From assembly GCA_023382975.1 (NCBI GenBank), contig JAHDXO010000044.1:1-64000 (forward strand): 64,000 nucleotides of DNA, written 5' to 3'. This DNA is from Pirellulaceae bacterium. GTDB lineage: Bacteria; Planctomycetota; Planctomycetia; Pirellulales; Pirellulaceae. Positions 8,789 to 50,709 of this stretch are shown here, in pieces. A model generated the notes under the pieces. That model saw only the letters and a program-made list of their open reading frames with translations. It was not told where the DNA came from and made no database searches. Made by a program: the position numbers and the translations under genes. The first letter of the stretch is position 1. Every line of letters starts with the position of its first letter.

Positions 8789-8809
8789 CCGAATCAAGTC
8801 CCCAAGTGG

Positions 8810-8898: not shown

Positions 8899-9639
8899 TC
8901 AATACGGATTCAGCATCTCCTTGACTTGCTTGGTTCCCCAGATGATGGCCTCGTCGATCACGCAGTGTTCCGGGACGTCGATGCAATGCACCAAGGTACG
9001 AGCGAAATCGTGGGCGTCCGGATAGCCTTCGAGCCAACTGCTGTCGATGCCGGCGGCGTCGCAGAATCCGGTGCGGGCGGCGCCGGGCACGAAACTGGTG
9101 GCTTTGCCGCCCCACTCGGCCATCTCCTTGTGCAAACATCGCGTGAACGCGACCAGCCCCGCCTTGGCCGCCGTGTAGGTCGCCCACTGCCCCCACGAGT
9201 AATGCGCGCACCCGCTCGATACGTTGACGATGTGCCCGCTGCCCTGCGGTTTCATCACCTTGACCACTTCGCGACAGCCCTTGATCACGGATGCCAAATT
9301 GATATTCAGAATGGACTCGATCTCGGCATCGTCCAGCTTTTCGACCTCCGCGATCCTGACCCCGGCGCCGTGGTTGTTGACCAGAACGTCCAACCGTCCG
9401 AACCGGTCCAGCGTGGCCTGGATCAACCGTTGCCAGTCCTCCGTTCGCACCGCGTCCGCTTGGACGGCCAGCAAATCGTTCGACGACAATCCGTCCGCCG
9501 CCATGTTCAGCCGGAGTTGATCGCGCCCGGTGATCACCACCCGGGCACCCATCTCCAACAAGATCCGAGCCGCGTGCAAACCGAACCCCGACGAACCGCC
9601 GGTGATGATGATCACCTTGTCCTGCACATAGTGGTCCAT
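8899..9639 (-). CDS. Short-chain dehydrogenase/reductase, 246 aa
   Basis: NAD(P)-dependent oxidoreductase of classical SDR type. TGGSSGFG at residues 13-20 is the dinucleotide loop (TGxxxGxG), NNHGAG follows strand 4, the catalytic Ser is in NVSSG, and YTAAK gives the Tyr and Lys. ITGRDQ after strand 2, with Arg instead of an acidic residue, favours NADP. The start at 9639 follows GGGGAG. The C-terminus (IWGTKQVKEML) is typical of FabG-like enzymes. Substrate unknown; the length is standard for the family. Confidence 0.9.
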   Translation of the reverse strand: MDHYVQDKVIIITGGSSGFGLHAARILLEMGARVVITGRDQLRLNMAADGLSSNDLLAVQADAVRTEDWQRLIQATLDRFGRLDVLVNNHGAGVRIAEVEKLDDAEIESILNINLASVIKGCREVVKVMKPQGSGHIVNVSSGCAHYSWGQWATYTAAKAGLVAFTRCLHKEMAEWGGKATSFVPGAARTGFCDAAGIDSSWLEGYPDAHDFARTLVHCIDVPEHCVIDEAIIWGTKQVKEMLNPY

Positions 9640-43546: not shown

Positions 43547-43960
43547 TCACATCGCAGCTTCCAGGGCTGCTTTGACGTTCGTCAAACGCTCCATGACCGT
43601 CCGGTGGTGCTTGGAGATCCGCTCGTGGGCGTCGCGTTGTTTCTGGTGGCGTTCCGAAAGCGCTTGGTGGGCATCGGCCAAGGTCTCTTGCAGACGCTCG
43701 TCGGTGCCCTGATGCTCGTACTCGGAGATCGCTCGGTCGTGGTTCGAGAGATCCTGTTGATGCTGCTCGATGGCGCACGCATGGTCGGCAAGCGCTTCCC
43801 CGTGTTGACGGATCATCTCCTGCAGCTTCGTCAACTCGGACAAGGCCGATCCATGCTCGCGTTGCCAGTGTTCCAGGTCGACTCGCCAAGCGGAATGCAC
43901 GTGATCCCACCGGCGGTGGTCGGCCTGCATACTCGTGAAACTGAGAATTTCCTGGTTCAT
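43547..43960 (-). CDS. Coiled-coil hypothetical protein, 137 aa
   Basis: Almost entirely helical and rich in His, Gln and Glu (HWQREHGSALSELTKLQEMI, QHGEALADHACAIEQHQQDL, LSERHQKQRDAHERISKHHR), with heptad-like spacing; no signal peptide. Sixteen His residues or so suggest metal binding, but this is a guess. Start at 43960 is preceded by GGGAGA. It is the first gene after a strong sigma-54 promoter (44020-44035) and is divergent from the ORP-like operon. Confidence 0.75.
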   Translation of the reverse strand: MNQEILSFTSMQADHRRWDHVHSAWRVDLEHWQREHGSALSELTKLQEMIRQHGEALADHACAIEQHQQDLSNHDRAISEYEHQGTDERLQETLADAHQALSERHQKQRDAHERISKHHRTVMERLTNVKAALEAAM

Positions 43961-44019: not shown

Positions 44020-44035
44020 AGCAACTTCCGGGCCG
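44020..44035 (-). promoter_or_regulatory. Sigma-54 (-24/-12) promoter, leftward
   Basis: Minus strand CGGCCCGGAAGTTGCT matches 10 of 12 fixed positions of TGGCACG-N4-TTGCW with intact GG and TTGC. Transcript start near 44009, about 50 bases before the coiled-coil gene. Confidence 0.7.
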
Positions 44036-44069
44036 TTTAGCCGCTCAGGCAGTTCCATCGGAATGCCGA

Positions 44070-44085
44070 TGAGCCACGTAGCTCA
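44070..44085. promoter_or_regulatory. Imperfect palindrome in the divergent regulatory region
   Basis: TGAGCCACGTAGCTCA, arms TGAGC/GCTCA around CACGTA. It lies 35 bases upstream of the leftward sigma-54 promoter and could bind an accessory regulator. Confidence 0.35.
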
Positions 44086-44110
44086 GCAACATGGGATTCG
44101 TTGAAACCTG

Positions 44111-44127
44111 TCTGGCATCATGCCAGA
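44111..44127. promoter_or_regulatory. Perfect palindrome, candidate activator site (UAS)
   Basis: TCTGGCATCATGCCAGA: 8-bp perfect arms around a single C. It lies about 76 bases upstream of the leftward and 144 bases upstream of the rightward sigma-54 promoter, the usual distance for enhancer-binding proteins; the candidate protein is encoded at 49351-50709. Confidence 0.6.
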
Positions 44128-44270
44128 GGCTTTTCTGCCCGGAGAAGGGCAATTTGCAAGACCGTTTTCATCGTTGAACCGCCGGTCGATGGTTCCCGAT
44201 CACAGATCGCTCACGTGGAAACGAAGTCATTTTCACAGGATCGGCCGGAACGCTTCGCGAGATGTTGCTT

Positions 44271-44286
44271 TGGCACGAGTAATGCA
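44271..44286 (+). promoter_or_regulatory. Sigma-54 (-24/-12) promoter, rightward
   Basis: TGGCACGAGTAATGCA matches 11 of 12 fixed positions of TGGCACG-N4-TTGCW. Predicted start near 44297, about 30 bases before the ORP-like gene. Confidence 0.8.
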
Positions 44287-44327: not shown

Positions 44328-44699
44328 ATGAAGCTTGCAATTACGGCTCAGGATACCGACTTGAACGCTCCGATCGAGACTCGATTCGGGCGTGCCCGAT
44401 ACCTCTTGATTGTCGACTCGGAGAGCGGAAGTCTCCGCGTCCACGACAACGCCGAAAACGCAGACGGACTGCAAGGAGCGGGCATTCAGAGCGCTCAAGC
44501 CGCGGTCAAGTTGGGAGCCCAGGCGTTGCTGACAGGCCATGTTGGCCCCAAAGCGTTGGAGACTCTGCAAGCGGCAGGAATCGCCGTGTACGTCGGCGCG
44601 ACGGGAACCGTGGCGGAGACGATCGAGTCATTTCATGCGGGAAAACTGGACGTCGTGGCAGAATCGCCGACCACGGAACACGCTTCTTCGTCGAAGTAG
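44328..44699 (+). CDS. Orange-protein-like NifX/NafY family protein, 123 aa
   Basis: Dinitrogenase iron-molybdenum cofactor-binding fold (RNase H-like): MKLAITAQDTDLNAPIETRF, GRARYLLIVDSESGSLRVHDN, AGIQSAQAAVKLGAQALLTG, VGPKALETLQAAGIAVYVGA, TVAETIESFHAG. Members bind metal clusters; the orange protein (ORP) of Desulfovibrio carries a Mo-Cu-S cluster. It lies in the first position of an operon with DUF5320 and MinD-type genes under sigma-54 control, as in the ORP gene set. Start follows ACGGAG. No nitrogenase genes are present, so a nif role is unlikely. Confidence 0.85.
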   Translation: MKLAITAQDTDLNAPIETRFGRARYLLIVDSESGSLRVHDNAENADGLQGAGIQSAQAAVKLGAQALLTGHVGPKALETLQAAGIAVYVGATGTVAETIESFHAGKLDVVAESPTTEHASSSK

Positions 44700-44765: not shown

Positions 44766-45119
44766 ATGCCCGGAGGAGATGGAACAGGACCTAGTCGAAG
44801 AGGCTCGCGGACAGGCCGTGGGTCGGGATTCTGCCGCGGCGTCAGAGTCACAGCCCCAGATGCCTCGGAGGAACCAAGGAACACCGGTGGAGGCGGCCGC
44901 GAGGACAGCACTCGACGGCATGGCGAGCGGCGGCGACGCCGTTGGCGGAGCGGGCTTGATGCTGCCGAGCCGACCGTGTCGCAGGTTGATCCCGTGGCGA
45001 TGGATGCGGCCCAAACGCCCGACGCAGCGACTCCGCAAGACTTGGCGGAACTCCTGGAACAAGCCGACAGGCTGGCCGTCGAGTTGGACGAGATCCGCAA
45101 ACGCATCCGGGAGATCTAG
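44766..45119 (+). CDS. DUF5320 family protein, 117 aa
   Basis: The N-terminus MPGGDGTGPSRRGSRTGRGSG matches the family signature (MPGGDGTGP.G.GP.TGRG.G.C), and the C-terminal helix DLAELLEQADRLAVELDEIR is the usual coiled-coil end. The Gly/Arg middle is Arg-rich here (HGERRRRRWRSG), unlike the usual Gly/Trp run, so it may be altered. AAGGAG precedes the ATG by seven bases. DUF5320 genes commonly accompany NifX-like and MinD-ferredoxin genes in anaerobes; the function is unknown. Confidence 0.8.
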   Translation: MPGGDGTGPSRRGSRTGRGSGFCRGVRVTAPDASEEPRNTGGGGREDSTRRHGERRRRRWRSGLDAAEPTVSQVDPVAMDAAQTPDAATPQDLAELLEQADRLAVELDEIRKRIREI

Positions 45120-45160: not shown

Positions 45161-46030
45161 ATGCGAATCGCAGTGGCCAGCGGCAAAGGCGGCACGGGCA
45201 AGACGACGATCGCCACGAACTTGGCCTACCTGGCCGCCAAGGCCGGTCGCCGGGTTGTCTACGCGGACTGCGACGTCGAGGAACCGAACGGGCATCTGTT
45301 CCTCGCTCCGACCATTACCCAGGAGATCTCGATCGATCGCCTGCTGCCGGTGGTGGATCGAGACCGATGCACCCTGTGCGGACGGTGCAGCGAGGTCTGC
45401 CGTTACGGCGCGATTGCCTGCGTCGGCCGGTCGGTATTGGTTTTCTCCGAGTTGTGTCACTCCTGCGGCGGCTGCCAGTTGGCCTGTCCGGAAGCAGCGA
45501 TTACCGAGGTGCCGCGGTCTCTGGGGCGAGTACGACTGGGGGCGAGTGGAGAACTCAGATTCGTAGACGGGTGCTTGAACGTGGGCGAAGCGATGAGCCC
45601 GCCGGCGATACGAGCCGTCAAGGTGGCGATCCCGGTGGATGCCGATCTGGTGTTTCTGGACTGCCCACCGGGCACTTCGTGTCCAGCGATCGAAAGTGTG
45701 CGCGGCGCTGACCTGGTGCTGTTGGTGACCGAGCCAACGCCTTTCGGCCTCCACGACTTGGAACTGGCCGTCCAGATGATTCGCGCCTTGCAATTGCCCT
45801 TCGCCGTGGTGGTCAATCGGGCCGATGTGGGCGATCGGAAAGTCTGGCAATACTGCGGTCGTCAGCACATCACGATCCTGGCAGAGTTTCCGGACGACCG
45901 CGATGTGGCTGGTGCGTACTCGCGAGGCCAGTTGGCAGCCGTCGCGGTGCCGCGTTTGGCAGCAAGCCTGCATGGATTGTTGGAGGCCGTGGAAGCAGAA
46001 AGTAGTCTGCAGGAGAGTGCGGTGGCATGA
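45161..46030 (+). CDS. MinD/Mrp-type ATPase with two inserted 4Fe-4S motifs (first copy), 289 aa
   Basis: Deviant Walker A SGKGGTGKTTIATNLA (8-23), switch regions YADCDVEEPN (34-43) and DLVFLDCPPGTSCP. A ferredoxin insert carries C70, C73, C76, C80 and C99, C102, C105, C109, the spacing for two 4Fe-4S clusters. ORP clusters carry a pair of such ATPases; they may place or load metal clusters. Start ATG at 45161 follows GGGGAGGAG; the longer frame from 45131 is less likely. The ATGA overlap with the next gene couples translation. Confidence 0.88.
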   Translation: MRIAVASGKGGTGKTTIATNLAYLAAKAGRRVVYADCDVEEPNGHLFLAPTITQEISIDRLLPVVDRDRCTLCGRCSEVCRYGAIACVGRSVLVFSELCHSCGGCQLACPEAAITEVPRSLGRVRLGASGELRFVDGCLNVGEAMSPPAIRAVKVAIPVDADLVFLDCPPGTSCPAIESVRGADLVLLVTEPTPFGLHDLELAVQMIRALQLPFAVVVNRADVGDRKVWQYCGRQHITILAEFPDDRDVAGAYSRGQLAAVAVPRLAASLHGLLEAVEAESSLQESAVA

Positions 46031-46962
46031 AGGAATTAGTGGTCATCAGCGGCAAAGGCGGGACGGGCAAGACGTCGATCGTGGCGTCACTGGCGAGTCT
46101 CGCACGGCGAGTGGTCTTGGCCGACTGCGATGTCGACGCGGCCGATCTGCATTTGGTCCTTCAACCAGAGATTGGACATCGCGAGGATTTCATCGGGGGC
46201 AGCAAGGCACAAATCGATCCGGCGCGCTGCAGGGCGTGTGGACAGTGCGCGAAATGGTGTCGATTCGATGCGGTCTCGGCCGACGGCCCCGAGAACGGCT
46301 CGCACCTGACAACGTGCCGGATCGACCCGCTGGCCTGCGAGGGCTGTGGAGTCTGCGTGGACTACTGCCCCTGGCGAGCGATCGAATTGCAGCCGGTGGT
46401 GTGCGGGCAATGGTTCGTCTCGCGGACGCGTTTTGGCCCGTTGGTTCACGCCCAGTTGGCGATCGCGTCGGAGAACTCCGGCAAGTTGGTAACGCACCTG
46501 CGACGCACGGCTCGACGGCTGGCCGAGGAGCGGCACCTGGAAATCATCCTTTGCGACGGTCCACCCGGCATTGGCTGTCCGGTCATTGCGTCGTTGACCG
46601 GCGCCGACTTGGCTCTTTTTGTCGCGGAGCCTACGATTTCCGGCCTGCACGATCTTCGCCGCTTGGCCGAACTGGCGAAGCGACTGCAAGTTCCGGGGAT
46701 GTTGGCGGTCAACAAGGCCGATGTGAACCCGGATTTGACAGTCGAATTGGAACAGTGGGCCCGGCAACAAGGTTTGCTGATCGCCGGTCGCGTACCCTAC
46801 GATGCGGCCGTGACGCGCGCTCAAGTGGCCGGGCAACCGGTGGTGGAAGTCTCCGATGGTCCGGCAGCGAGTGCGATCCGCGCGCTGTGGACCGAAGTGG
46901 CAACCAGATTGCCGACGGTGACCCCGGCAGCAATGCGAGGGTTGATACACCTGGCAGGCTAG
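46027..46962 (+). CDS. MinD/Mrp-type ATPase with two inserted 4Fe-4S motifs (second copy), 311 aa
   Basis: Paralogue of the preceding protein: SGKGGTGKTSIVASLA (8-23), LADCDVDAADLHL (31-43), ILCDGPPGIGCPVIASL. Cys68, 71, 74, 78 and Cys104, 107, 110, 114 form the ferredoxin insert. The two copies differ throughout, so a heterodimer is likely rather than a recent duplication. The start overlaps the stop of the first copy (ATGA). The same tandem arrangement is known in Desulfovibrio ORP clusters. Confidence 0.88.
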   Translation: MKELVVISGKGGTGKTSIVASLASLARRVVLADCDVDAADLHLVLQPEIGHREDFIGGSKAQIDPARCRACGQCAKWCRFDAVSADGPENGSHLTTCRIDPLACEGCGVCVDYCPWRAIELQPVVCGQWFVSRTRFGPLVHAQLAIASENSGKLVTHLRRTARRLAEERHLEIILCDGPPGIGCPVIASLTGADLALFVAEPTISGLHDLRRLAELAKRLQVPGMLAVNKADVNPDLTVELEQWARQQGLLIAGRVPYDAAVTRAQVAGQPVVEVSDGPAASAIRALWTEVATRLPTVTPAAMRGLIHLAG

Positions 46963-46980: not shown

Positions 46981-47916
46981 ATGGCTACGACGACCGCCTA
47001 TGTGTTTGGCCCCGTGCCGTCGCGGCGTTTGGGACGGTCGCTCGGGGTCGATCTCGTGCCTTTCAAGACATGCACGTTCGATTGCATCTATTGTCAGTTG
47101 GGGCGAACGACCCGCAGGACGATGGAACGGAAGCAGTGGGTGCTGCTGGAGCAAGTGCTGTCTCAGGTGCAGGCAAAGCTCGCCTCGCAACCGGACTACA
47201 TCACGTTGAGCGGATCGGGCGAGCCAACCCTGTTTTCGCCGTTGGACCGCGTGATCGACGGCATTCGCGCGATGACCGACATTCCCATCGCGGTGCTGAC
47301 CAATGGCTCGCTGTTGGGTAACAGCCAGGTTCAACGAGAATTACATTCGGCCGATCTGGTCATCCCTTCGCTGGATGCCGGCAACGAAACCACGTTCCAG
47401 TTGGTCAACCGGCCGCACCCGGAGATCGAGTTCCGGCAAATGCTGGACGGGTTGGTTTCCTTCCGCTCCCGTTTTGGCGGCCAGGTTTGGCTGGAGATCC
47501 TGTTGGTCGATCCGTACACCACATCGCCGTCCGAGTTGGAGGATCTCCGGCGATGCGCCGAACGGATCCAACCGGACCGTGTCCAACTGAATACCGTCGT
47601 CCGTCCGCCGGCCGAAAGACGAGCTCGATCCGTTGCCGCCGAACGGCTAGCCGAGATCGCCCGCACCTTCCGACCGCCCGCCGAAGTGATCGCGGAGCAT
47701 GCGGCAAACGACGAGTACTCGCCACTCTGCGGGCGCGAGGAGGTCTTGGATCTGTTGCGCCGCCGGCCTTGTACCGTCGCCGACATTGCTAGCGGTCTTC
47801 GGATCCATCCCGCCGAAACTGTCAAGATCGTCGAGTCGCTCTGTCGCGAGCAACGCGTCGAGTCTTGCTCGACCGCGGAAGGAATCCACTATCGTGCCAG
47901 GATGGAACCGGGCTGA
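46981..47916 (+). CDS. Radical SAM protein with C-terminal winged-helix-like domain, 311 aa
   Basis: CTFDCIYC (Cys31, 35, 38) is the CX3CX2C cluster within FGPVPSRRLGRSLGVDLVPF, the start typical of the COG0731-like group. YITLSGSGEPTLFSPL and IAVLTNGSLLG follow. Residues ~245-305 (EVLDLLRRRPCTVADIASGL, VKIVESLCREQRV) look like a winged helix. Last gene of the rightward operon, 18 bases after the MinD pair. A role in metallocofactor maturation is inferred from the neighbours. Confidence 0.85.
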   Translation: MATTTAYVFGPVPSRRLGRSLGVDLVPFKTCTFDCIYCQLGRTTRRTMERKQWVLLEQVLSQVQAKLASQPDYITLSGSGEPTLFSPLDRVIDGIRAMTDIPIAVLTNGSLLGNSQVQRELHSADLVIPSLDAGNETTFQLVNRPHPEIEFRQMLDGLVSFRSRFGGQVWLEILLVDPYTTSPSELEDLRRCAERIQPDRVQLNTVVRPPAERRARSVAAERLAEIARTFRPPAEVIAEHAANDEYSPLCGREEVLDLLRRRPCTVADIASGLRIHPAETVKIVESLCREQRVESCSTAEGIHYRARMEPG

Positions 47917-47928
47917 TCGACAAGCGGT

Positions 47929-48186
47929 TCAATCCTCCGCCGTGGCGTCATAGGCCTCCAGATAATCTCTGCCAAATCGTTCTTGCAGGATCTCCAGCGC
48001 AAGCGTTCGCTCGCTCTCGCCACAAAACGCGAAGCCCTCGTCCGTGCGGTGTCCGCCGCATCGTTCGATGCCGCGGCACAATTCCCAGGCATCGTCCCAG
48101 TCCGCCTCGGGCAGATTCAAACGGATCAGGAATCGCGGTTCCGACCGATGGGTCCGCCTGCCAACTTCCATCGTTGGTGCTTGCAT
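47929..48186 (-). CDS. Hypothetical protein, 85 aa
   Basis: Small alpha/beta protein (PRFLIRLNLPEADWDDAWEL, GFAFCGESERTLALEILQER). Start at 48186 follows AAGGGGG. It follows the metallo-beta-lactamase-fold gene in the same direction by 66 bases and ends 12 bases from the radical SAM gene on the other strand. The family is unknown; it may belong to the ORP-like set. Confidence 0.75.
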   Translation of the reverse strand: MQAPTMEVGRRTHRSEPRFLIRLNLPEADWDDAWELCRGIERCGGHRTDEGFAFCGESERTLALEILQERFGRDYLEAYDATAED

Positions 48187-48252
48187 GATGTTTTCCCCCT
48201 TTCCCTTCACGCATTCTCGCCAAGACGGCGCCCGAGTCAACGGACGTCCGCG

Positions 48253-49095
48253 TCAGGGAACGTCGAATTCGAATCGCGTTCCGACATGGCATGTGGCGCA
48301 GCGGCCTGGAAACGCTTTCCAGATCGCCGCGGTGGCCGCCATCCCAGTGCAATGGCCGGGCGCGAGCAACCGGATATTCCAAGTCCGCAGCGACTCGATC
48401 GTCCGTTCGAGCCGTTCCGGCGATGCCTGAACCAGATGCATGCCGCCCAAGACCGCATGGATCGGTTTGCCACCGGTCAACTGGTCGATGTACCGCAGTG
48501 TATTCACCACTCCACTGTGCGCGCATCCAAGAAGGACCACCACGCCGTCCGACGCCTCGAAGTAAACCGCCTGGTCATCGACCAGCGGATCGGGACGAGT
48601 GCATTCGGCGTCCAAGTAGAACGGCCCGCCCGTGTCTTCGAAATCCGTGGTGCGAGGCACGGGGCCCGTCACCATCAAACCATCCAGCACCGCGGTCGGA
48701 CCCGTCGTTTCCACCACGTGTGCTCGGTAATCCTGGATCGCCCGCTGACTGGTCGAGGGCATGCCGATCTCCCGCGAAGTGCCGTCCCGGTTGCGTGCGA
48801 ACTTGGGCTGCATCGCCGCTGGATGGAGGAAGACCCGCGGGTGGTTCAAGCGAAGCACGTCCGCCAAGCCGCCGGTATGGTCGTAGTGACCGTGGCTCAA
48901 AACAACCGCATCCGCCTGGTGCAGCGGCACGTCCATCTTAAAGGCATTGGCTACAAGAACGGTGCCTTGCCCGGTGTCCAGCAACACGCGGCGGCCCTTC
49001 CACTCAATCCAATAGGCCAGACCATGTTCCGCCAACAGTCTGGCTCCCTCGACCGTATTCTCAACGACGACGCGAATCTGAATTTTCTCGGGCAT
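48253..49095 (-). CDS. Metallo-beta-lactamase-fold hydrolase, aminobenzene 5'-phosphate synthase-like, 280 aa
   Basis: IRVVVENTVEG at the start, VLLDTGQGTVLVANAFKM, and LSHGHYDHTGGLADVL with the HxHxDH motif place it in the COG1237 group, named after an archaeal methanopterin enzyme but mostly uncharacterised in bacteria. VLLGCAHSGVVNTLRYI and LAPGHCTG give the remaining ligands. Start at 49095 follows GGAGAATC. It lies between the activator gene and the small protein in the same direction. Confidence 0.85.
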   Translation of the reverse strand: MPEKIQIRVVVENTVEGARLLAEHGLAYWIEWKGRRVLLDTGQGTVLVANAFKMDVPLHQADAVVLSHGHYDHTGGLADVLRLNHPRVFLHPAAMQPKFARNRDGTSREIGMPSTSQRAIQDYRAHVVETTGPTAVLDGLMVTGPVPRTTDFEDTGGPFYLDAECTRPDPLVDDQAVYFEASDGVVVLLGCAHSGVVNTLRYIDQLTGGKPIHAVLGGMHLVQASPERLERTIESLRTWNIRLLAPGHCTGMAATAAIWKAFPGRCATCHVGTRFEFDVP

Positions 49096-49208
49096 GATCC
49101 CGATTCTCCGGGTACTGAAAACCTCGGTGCCATCCACCATGGATCCGTGTACGCACTTTTCATGCCGACCGTTTGTTCGCTGGGAAGACGAGTGCGTATC
49201 GTCGGCCC

Positions 49209-49224
49209 GGCAAGATCCGTGTCG
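49209..49224 (-). promoter_or_regulatory. Degenerate sigma-54-like sequence upstream of the MBL gene
   Basis: Minus strand CGACACGGATCTTGCC has CACG-N4-TTGC intact, but the -24 GG reads GA. About 115 bases upstream of the ATG at 49095. Confidence 0.25.
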
Positions 49225-49350
49225 GCAACCCCAAACCGCTTCCGACATGGCGATCCTGGAGGACCCAAGCTGAAGAACCGCAGATTGCCAGCGGTAAACT
49301 GCAAGGCTGGCGTCTCCAGCCACCGTGGCATTTTGCCGTACCGAAGGCCA

Positions 49351-50709
49351 TCAGGACTTCCGTGGCTTGGAACCCGGCATCTCGATGCCGTACGATCGAA
49401 TCTTACGGTGCAGCGTGCTGGGGTCGATGCCCAGTTGCTTGGCCGCCGCGGTGCGGTTGCCCTGGTGCTTGCTCAGGGCGTCGCGGATCAGCCATTGTTC
49501 GGCGGCGGCGAGCGTCATGCCGGTCATCTCGGCCAGCGAGCACGATTCCGCCGGGCGGCGCAGCGAGGCGGGCAGGTGCGACATCTGGATCAGACCGCTG
49601 CGGCAGAGGACAAAGGCGTGTTCGATGATGTTCTCCAATTCTCGCACGTTGCCGGGGAATTCGTATTCCATCAAACGCGACAGCACCTCGTCGGCGACGC
49701 CCACGACGTCCTTGCCTTGCAGCCGGTTGAACTTGGCGACAAAGTGATCGGTCAACAACGGAACGTCTTCGCGGCGCTGGCAGAGACGCGGCAACTCGAG
49801 GCGCACCACGTGAATCCGGTAGAACAGATCCTCGCGGAACGTGCCCGCCTCGACCAGTCCGGCCAAGTCCTGGTGCGTGGCAGCCAGCACGCGCACATCC
49901 GTGGCGACCGATTCGACGGACCCCAGCGGCTCGAACACCTTTTCCTGCAAGACACGGAGCAGACGAGCCTGCATCGCGGGAGAAATGTCACCGATCTCGT
50001 CCAGGAAAATCGTCCCGCCGCGGGCCAACTCGAACCGTCCGGGCTTGTCGCGGCGCGCGTCCGTAAACGCGCCGGCCTTGTAGCCGAACAGTTCCGATTC
50101 CAAGAGAGTGTCCGGCAAGGCGCCGCAGTTGATGGCGACGAACGGATGGTCTTTGCGCCGCGACAGCGAATGGATCGCGCGGGCGAACAGTTCCTTGCCC
50201 GTTCCGCTGGCGCCGTGGATCAACACCGTGCTTTCGCTCTCCGCCAGCAGCGGCAAGAGCTCGAAGACCTGGCGGATCGCGGCGCTTCGTCCCACGATGT
50301 CGGCGAAGGTATGCTTCCGCTCGAGTTCCTTCCTGAGATCTTCGACCAGAGTCAAATCGCGGAACGTTTCGACACCGCCGATCACCTTGCCGCGGCGGTC
50401 CTTGAACACAGCGGTCGAAATGCTGATCGGGATCCGCTGGCCTTTCACGCCGAGGATGTAGATCGGCTTGTTGACGATCGGACGCCCTGTCGCCAACGTT
50501 TCCCGCAAGGCGCACGAGGCCTCGCAGATGCTGGCGCGAAACACTTCGCAGCAGCGGCGTCCCAGGGCTTCCTTGCGTTTGACTCCCGTGATGCGTTCGG
50601 CCCCTCGGTTGAACGAGGTGATCCGCCACTCTTCGTCCACGGTGAACACCCCGTCGTTGATCGAGTCGAGGATGACACCGTGGAATTCGTCGATATTGCC
50701 AACAGTCAT
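49351..50709 (-). CDS. Sigma-54-dependent transcriptional activator with PAS sensor, 452 aa
   Basis: PAS domain (residues ~5-120) containing CCEVFRASICEASCALR, a Cys-rich loop that could bind a metal or an Fe-S cluster. AAA+ domain from ~140: HGASGTGKELFARAIH (Walker A), ESELFGYKAGAFTDAR, where the canonical GAFTGA reads GAFTDA, GGTIFLDEIGDI (Walker B), and FPGNVRELENIIEHA. Fis-type helix-turn-helix at the end (NRTAAAKQLGIDPSTLHRKI). It is the probable activator of the sigma-54 promoters at 44.0-44.3 kb and 41.0 kb. ATG at 50709 with GGAGGG 12 bases upstream. Confidence 0.9.
   Translation of the reverse strand: MTVGNIDEFHGVILDSINDGVFTVDEEWRITSFNRGAERITGVKRKEALGRRCCEVFRASICEASCALRETLATGRPIVNKPIYILGVKGQRIPISISTAVFKDRRGKVIGGVETFRDLTLVEDLRKELERKHTFADIVGRSAAIRQVFELLPLLAESESTVLIHGASGTGKELFARAIHSLSRRKDHPFVAINCGALPDTLLESELFGYKAGAFTDARRDKPGRFELARGGTIFLDEIGDISPAMQARLLRVLQEKVFEPLGSVESVATDVRVLAATHQDLAGLVEAGTFREDLFYRIHVVRLELPRLCQRREDVPLLTDHFVAKFNRLQGKDVVGVADEVLSRLMEYEFPGNVRELENIIEHAFVLCRSGLIQMSHLPASLRRPAESCSLAEMTGMTLAAAEQWLIRDALSKHQGNRTAAAKQLGIDPSTLHRKIRSYGIEMPGSKPRKS

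Follow-up and report, generated by a model that had tools for sequence, protein, structure and literature searches.

In enteric bacteria, the NtrC enhancer of glnA comprises a pair of dimer sites spaced by about 32 bp and located about 110 and 140 bp upstream of the sigma-54 promoter. In Desulfovibrio vulgaris Hildenborough, orp1 and orp2 are divergent sigma-54 operons with DVU2106 as activator and palindromic activator sites found ~88-131 bp upstream of the promoters; in orange-protein (ORP) clusters, IHF sites lie between the activator sites and the promoters (PMC3897727, PMC4641369, PMC6345978).

The region considered here spans 270 bases of the genome of a planctomycete (Pirellulaceae) and was analysed within a 64-kb stretch of DNA, hereafter called the window. 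We estimate at about 0.8 the probability that these 270 bases form a bidirectional sigma-54 control region, in which one tandem enhancer would be shared by two promoters and the activator encoded at 49351-50709 would drive both gene sets. The features of the locus are the following.

43547..43960, minus strand: leftward gene, 137-aa His-rich helical protein, with homologues in a few planctomycetes
44020..44035, minus strand: leftward sigma-54 -24/-12 element CGGCCCGGAAGTTGCT, 10/12 consensus positions, rank 8 of 127,970
44109..44129: putative operator 1, TGTCTGGCATCATGCCAGAGG, with the perfect palindrome TCTGGCATCATGCCAGA (44111-44127), rank 5 of 63,980 with a matrix from other genomes
44143..44163: putative operator 2, AGAAGGGCAATTTGCAAGACC, an imperfect copy, rank 1 of 63,980 with the same other-genome matrix
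44271..44286, plus strand: rightward sigma-54 -24/-12 element TGGCACGAGTAATGCA, 11/12 consensus positions, rank 1 of 127,970
44328..44699, plus strand: NifX/Orp8-like protein (Nitro_FeMo-Co; PF02579 2e-21)
44766..45119, plus strand: DUF5320 protein (PF17253 1.7e-16)
45161..46030, plus strand: MinD-like ATPase with 4Fe-4S motifs (Orp3/Orp4-like; CbiA and Fer4 matches)
46027..46962, plus strand: second MinD-like ATPase with 4Fe-4S motifs (CbiA and Fer4 matches)
46981..47916, plus strand: radical SAM protein (PF04055 6e-14)
47929-48240, minus strand: 103-aa reading frame flanked by the radical SAM gene and the MBL gene, no family match
48253..49323, minus strand: MBL-fold hydrolase, adjoining the activator gene (PF00753 8e-12)
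49351..50709, minus strand: sigma-54 activator with PAS, AAA+ (GAFTDA; PF00158 1.3e-67) and HTH_8 (STLHRK helix; PF02954 4e-12) domains

Most likely, this region is much like the Desulfovibrio orp operons, with an operator newly proposed here. As in orp1/orp2 of D. vulgaris, predicted divergent sigma-54 operons go with NifX-family and 4Fe-4S MinD-like proteins, in a comparison that covered gene content, promoter layout and activator type. The NifX-family protein and the two 4Fe-4S MinD-like ATPases characteristic of an ORP cluster are found together, and the sequence alone shows the pattern of palindromic activator sites combined with divergent sigma-54 operons. The activator, like DVU2106, is a single-component protein with a GAFTDA motif. 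However, the locus departs from orp1/orp2 in several respects. The two promoters would have one tandem enhancer in common, the activator gene closes the cluster, next to the MBL gene, and the left target would be the helical-protein gene. A single, poor IHF-like match was found; it has 2 mismatches and overlaps the right promoter. Moreover, the genome has no match to the fused MrpORP (Orp9) above the NF041136 cut-off; a separate Mrp is encoded on contig C57 and a NifX-type domain on contig C24. For this reason, the cluster is named ORP-like. With regard to glnA, the operator geometry (two sites, their spacing and their distance) resembles that of the NtrC enhancer, whereas the operator sequence differs, a PAS domain takes the place of the response-regulator receiver and two promoters would be served.

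The search for sigma-54 sites covered 127,970 positions of the window and used a -24/-12 weight matrix; this matrix was set up from the established consensus rather than trained in this analysis. The right site, in front of the NifX gene, is the top match of the window and has one mismatch to the TGGCAYRNNNNTTGCW consensus; the left site has two. GG and GC 10 bp apart are present in both, the right site being strong and the left one moderate. A preliminary description of the region had reported these two 16-mers, with 10 and 11 matches out of 12, as well as the 17-bp palindrome; all were found where it had placed them and the match counts were confirmed. The distances of 76 and 144 bases that it gave between palindrome and promoters correspond to measured gaps of 75 and 143 bp, and the rpoN gene that it presupposed is present in the genome (PF04552 9e-61, contig C2). 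Back-to-back sites 100-400 bp apart are expected ~0.04 times per 64 kb, a value obtained with a threshold set after the sites were seen.

The left -24/-12 element is mediocre and less certain than the right one. This raises the question of whether the rightward promoter alone uses sigma-54, the leftward match being fortuitous and the helical-protein gene having another promoter. Indeed, the left site is just the eighth in the window and ~6 sites of its class are expected per simulated window. However, it precedes the likely start codon of the helical-protein gene by 74 bp, and in three out of four distant homologues a sigma-54-like site (TGGCACTCAGCTTGCA, TGGCCAGGCGCTTGCT and TGGCCACCCGCTTGCT, the third scoring just 9.7) is found ahead of the gene match, at a distance of 41-80 bp; the homologue loci L208 and L209 are close relatives of one another. 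The left site is thereby backed independently of the ORP-like cluster. Moreover, the back-to-back layout is seen again on contig C24 and in the related genome G010, described below. A fortuitous leftward match is thus considered unlikely. In the predicted bidirectional control region, the right half is well supported and the left half is likely.

The leftward 137-aa protein has no Pfam match. A single-sequence structure model contains two long helices, and no significant fold match was found with this model. Among the searched planctomycete genomes, this His-rich helical protein family is sparse, mostly with sigma-54-like sites upstream.

By itself, the perfect palindrome of operator 1 is weak evidence. 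Perfect palindromes of 17 bp, with 8-bp arms around a single central base, occur twice in the window, and perfect inverted repeats with arms of at least 8 bp and a centre of at most 5 bp occur 9 times. Since such palindromes are not rare within the window, the palindrome alone was dropped as proof. With the family matrix, whose highest possible score is 32, the palindrome reaches only 7.8. Operator 2, overlooked in the preliminary description, is stronger evidence. The centres of the two operators (44119 and 44153) are 34 bp apart, that is, about three helical turns, so that both would look towards much the same side of the double helix. Counted from the predicted left start, the centres fall at about -110 and -144; counted from the predicted right start, at about -144 and -178. 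One may argue that the palindrome is no operator, but an inverted repeat that arose by chance or has a structural or terminator role. The abundance of perfect palindromes of like size in the window goes in this direction, but the palindrome is positioned between two divergent gene starts, tandem operator pairs were absent from all 300 simulated windows (0/300) and the operator core and spacing are conserved in relatives. This explanation is therefore very improbable.

The conservation of the operators was studied in 80 loci from several phyla, chosen for their relatedness to the second MinD gene. In many of them, an activator 54-72% identical to that of the window is encoded beside NifX and MinD genes. 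In ORP-like clusters of several phyla, these related activators are accompanied by operators of the form AnnATTGCA-N3-TGCAATnnT. These often come in pairs, with a spacing of 31-33 bp and a location 80-200 bp ahead of sigma-54 sites. In the loci and the window, the pattern TKGCA-N3-TGCMA has 34 matches, whereas two control patterns have 7 and 9. Most of its matches near activators have an outward sigma-54 site at a distance of 80-200 bp. The operator matrix (consensus AnnATTGCAnnnTGCAATnnT) was derived from 25 such operators, none of which comes from the organism's own genome or from G010. It should be noted that the training sites were chosen by motif match, so that the flanks are informative, the core is fixed by choice and part of the operator enrichment is built in. 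Among the 23 pairs scored in the loci and the window (15-80 bp range), 21 have a spacing of 31-34 bp, some of the underlying loci overlapping or sharing a genome. With 34 bp, the pair of the window is at the edge of the range and near the 31-33 bp found in relatives. The palindrome, initially proposed as an element shared by both promoters, would indeed belong to a family of operators that, in several phyla, precede sigma-54 sites in the neighbourhood of homologous activators, but the enhancer would consist of two operators, not one. Overall, these comparisons support the earlier sigma-54/enhancer interpretation as largely right, though incomplete.

The 452-aa protein encoded at 49351-50709 has the AAA+ domain with a GAFTGA-type loop (PF00158, GAFTDA) and the DNA-binding HTH (PF02954) expected of a sigma-54 activator. 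Its gene, previously described as next to the promoters, is actually 5 kb away, on the opposite side of the cluster. The PAS domain carries a Cys-x8-Cys-x3-Cys motif, invariant in the 28 homologues that cover this domain. It is plausible that this domain responds to a metal or redox signal, given the predicted Fe-S targets of the activator. At one position of the recognition helix, Tyr, Trp or Phe is found in 30/31 aligned activators and His (His434) in that of the window; His is also found there in L172 and L180, two less similar activators. From these very few cases, we hypothesise that the helix His is tied to a TGGCA operator.

Single operators are uninformative at the scale of the genome: TKGCANNNTGCMA is not commoner than a control pattern (36 vs 44), and a tandem pair together with a promoter is therefore needed as a criterion. 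GCA-N3-TGC tandem cores number 16 in the whole genome, against 10 for the control pattern. Among the 15 tandem cores that were read, good operator scores and a sigma-54 site are combined only in the window and on contig C28 (L146:2632-2683), where canonical tandem operators and the sigma-54 site AGGCACGATTGTTGCA precede the gene of a secreted Cys/Thr-repeat protein. The exact 17-mer palindrome, for which the preliminary description had suggested a genome scan, occurs once in the 10.46-Mb assembly. A paralogue 61% identical to the window activator is encoded ~6.5 kb downstream of the C28 tandem pair.

Since the genome has ~25 clear sigma-54 activators, a different one could bind the control region. 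The C28 paralogue, for instance, might bind the operators of the window, alone or together with the window activator: its own tandem operators are canonical, and operator 2 of the window is near this canonical form. Nevertheless, the window activator is encoded within the cluster that it would control, and its G010 orthologue is likewise found beside such operators, which makes binding by another activator distinctly unlikely. In the preferred reading, the activator encoded at 49351-50709 would sense a signal via its three-cysteine PAS domain, bind both operators, at 44119 and 44153, and then oligomerise. DNA looping would bring it to the sigma-54 polymerase at either promoter. The NifX, DUF5320, MinD, MinD and radical SAM genes would then be switched on rightward, and the helical-protein gene leftward.

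Orp-like regulation would thereby extend to a planctomycete and the helical protein would be linked to sigma-54/ORP-like regulation, while activators beside Fe-S/orange-protein-like clusters in several phyla would be provided with a testable operator code. A broader scenario may tentatively be put forward. In several phyla, a widespread Cys-PAS activator family would keep the tandem code ATTGCA-N3-TGCAAT (31-33 bp) by ORP-like Fe-S clusters; within one lineage of planctomycetes, this code would have drifted along with the change from an aromatic residue to His in the recognition helix, so that two paralogues of one cell could address separate targets. The locus thereby suggests a naturally occurring instance of joint change in operator and recognition helix.

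The back-to-back layout recurs at two places. On contig C24 (L216:6673-6914), two divergent NifX-family genes enclose back-to-back sigma-54 sites, which in turn flank two weaker operator-like sites with a spacing of 35 bp. G010 is the only one of 60 related genomes with a close activator (~76% identical), which has the STLHRK helix in common with that of the window. On its contig L205, a minus-strand sigma-54 site at 8800 and a plus-strand one at 9110 stand back to back and enclose two operators with a spacing of 31 bp. This recurrence supports the reading of a shared enhancer. A third sigma-54 site, at 10794 of L205, comes with a further operator pair, and the contig that carries the G010 activator also encodes an MBL-fold hydrolase with 64% identity to that of the window.
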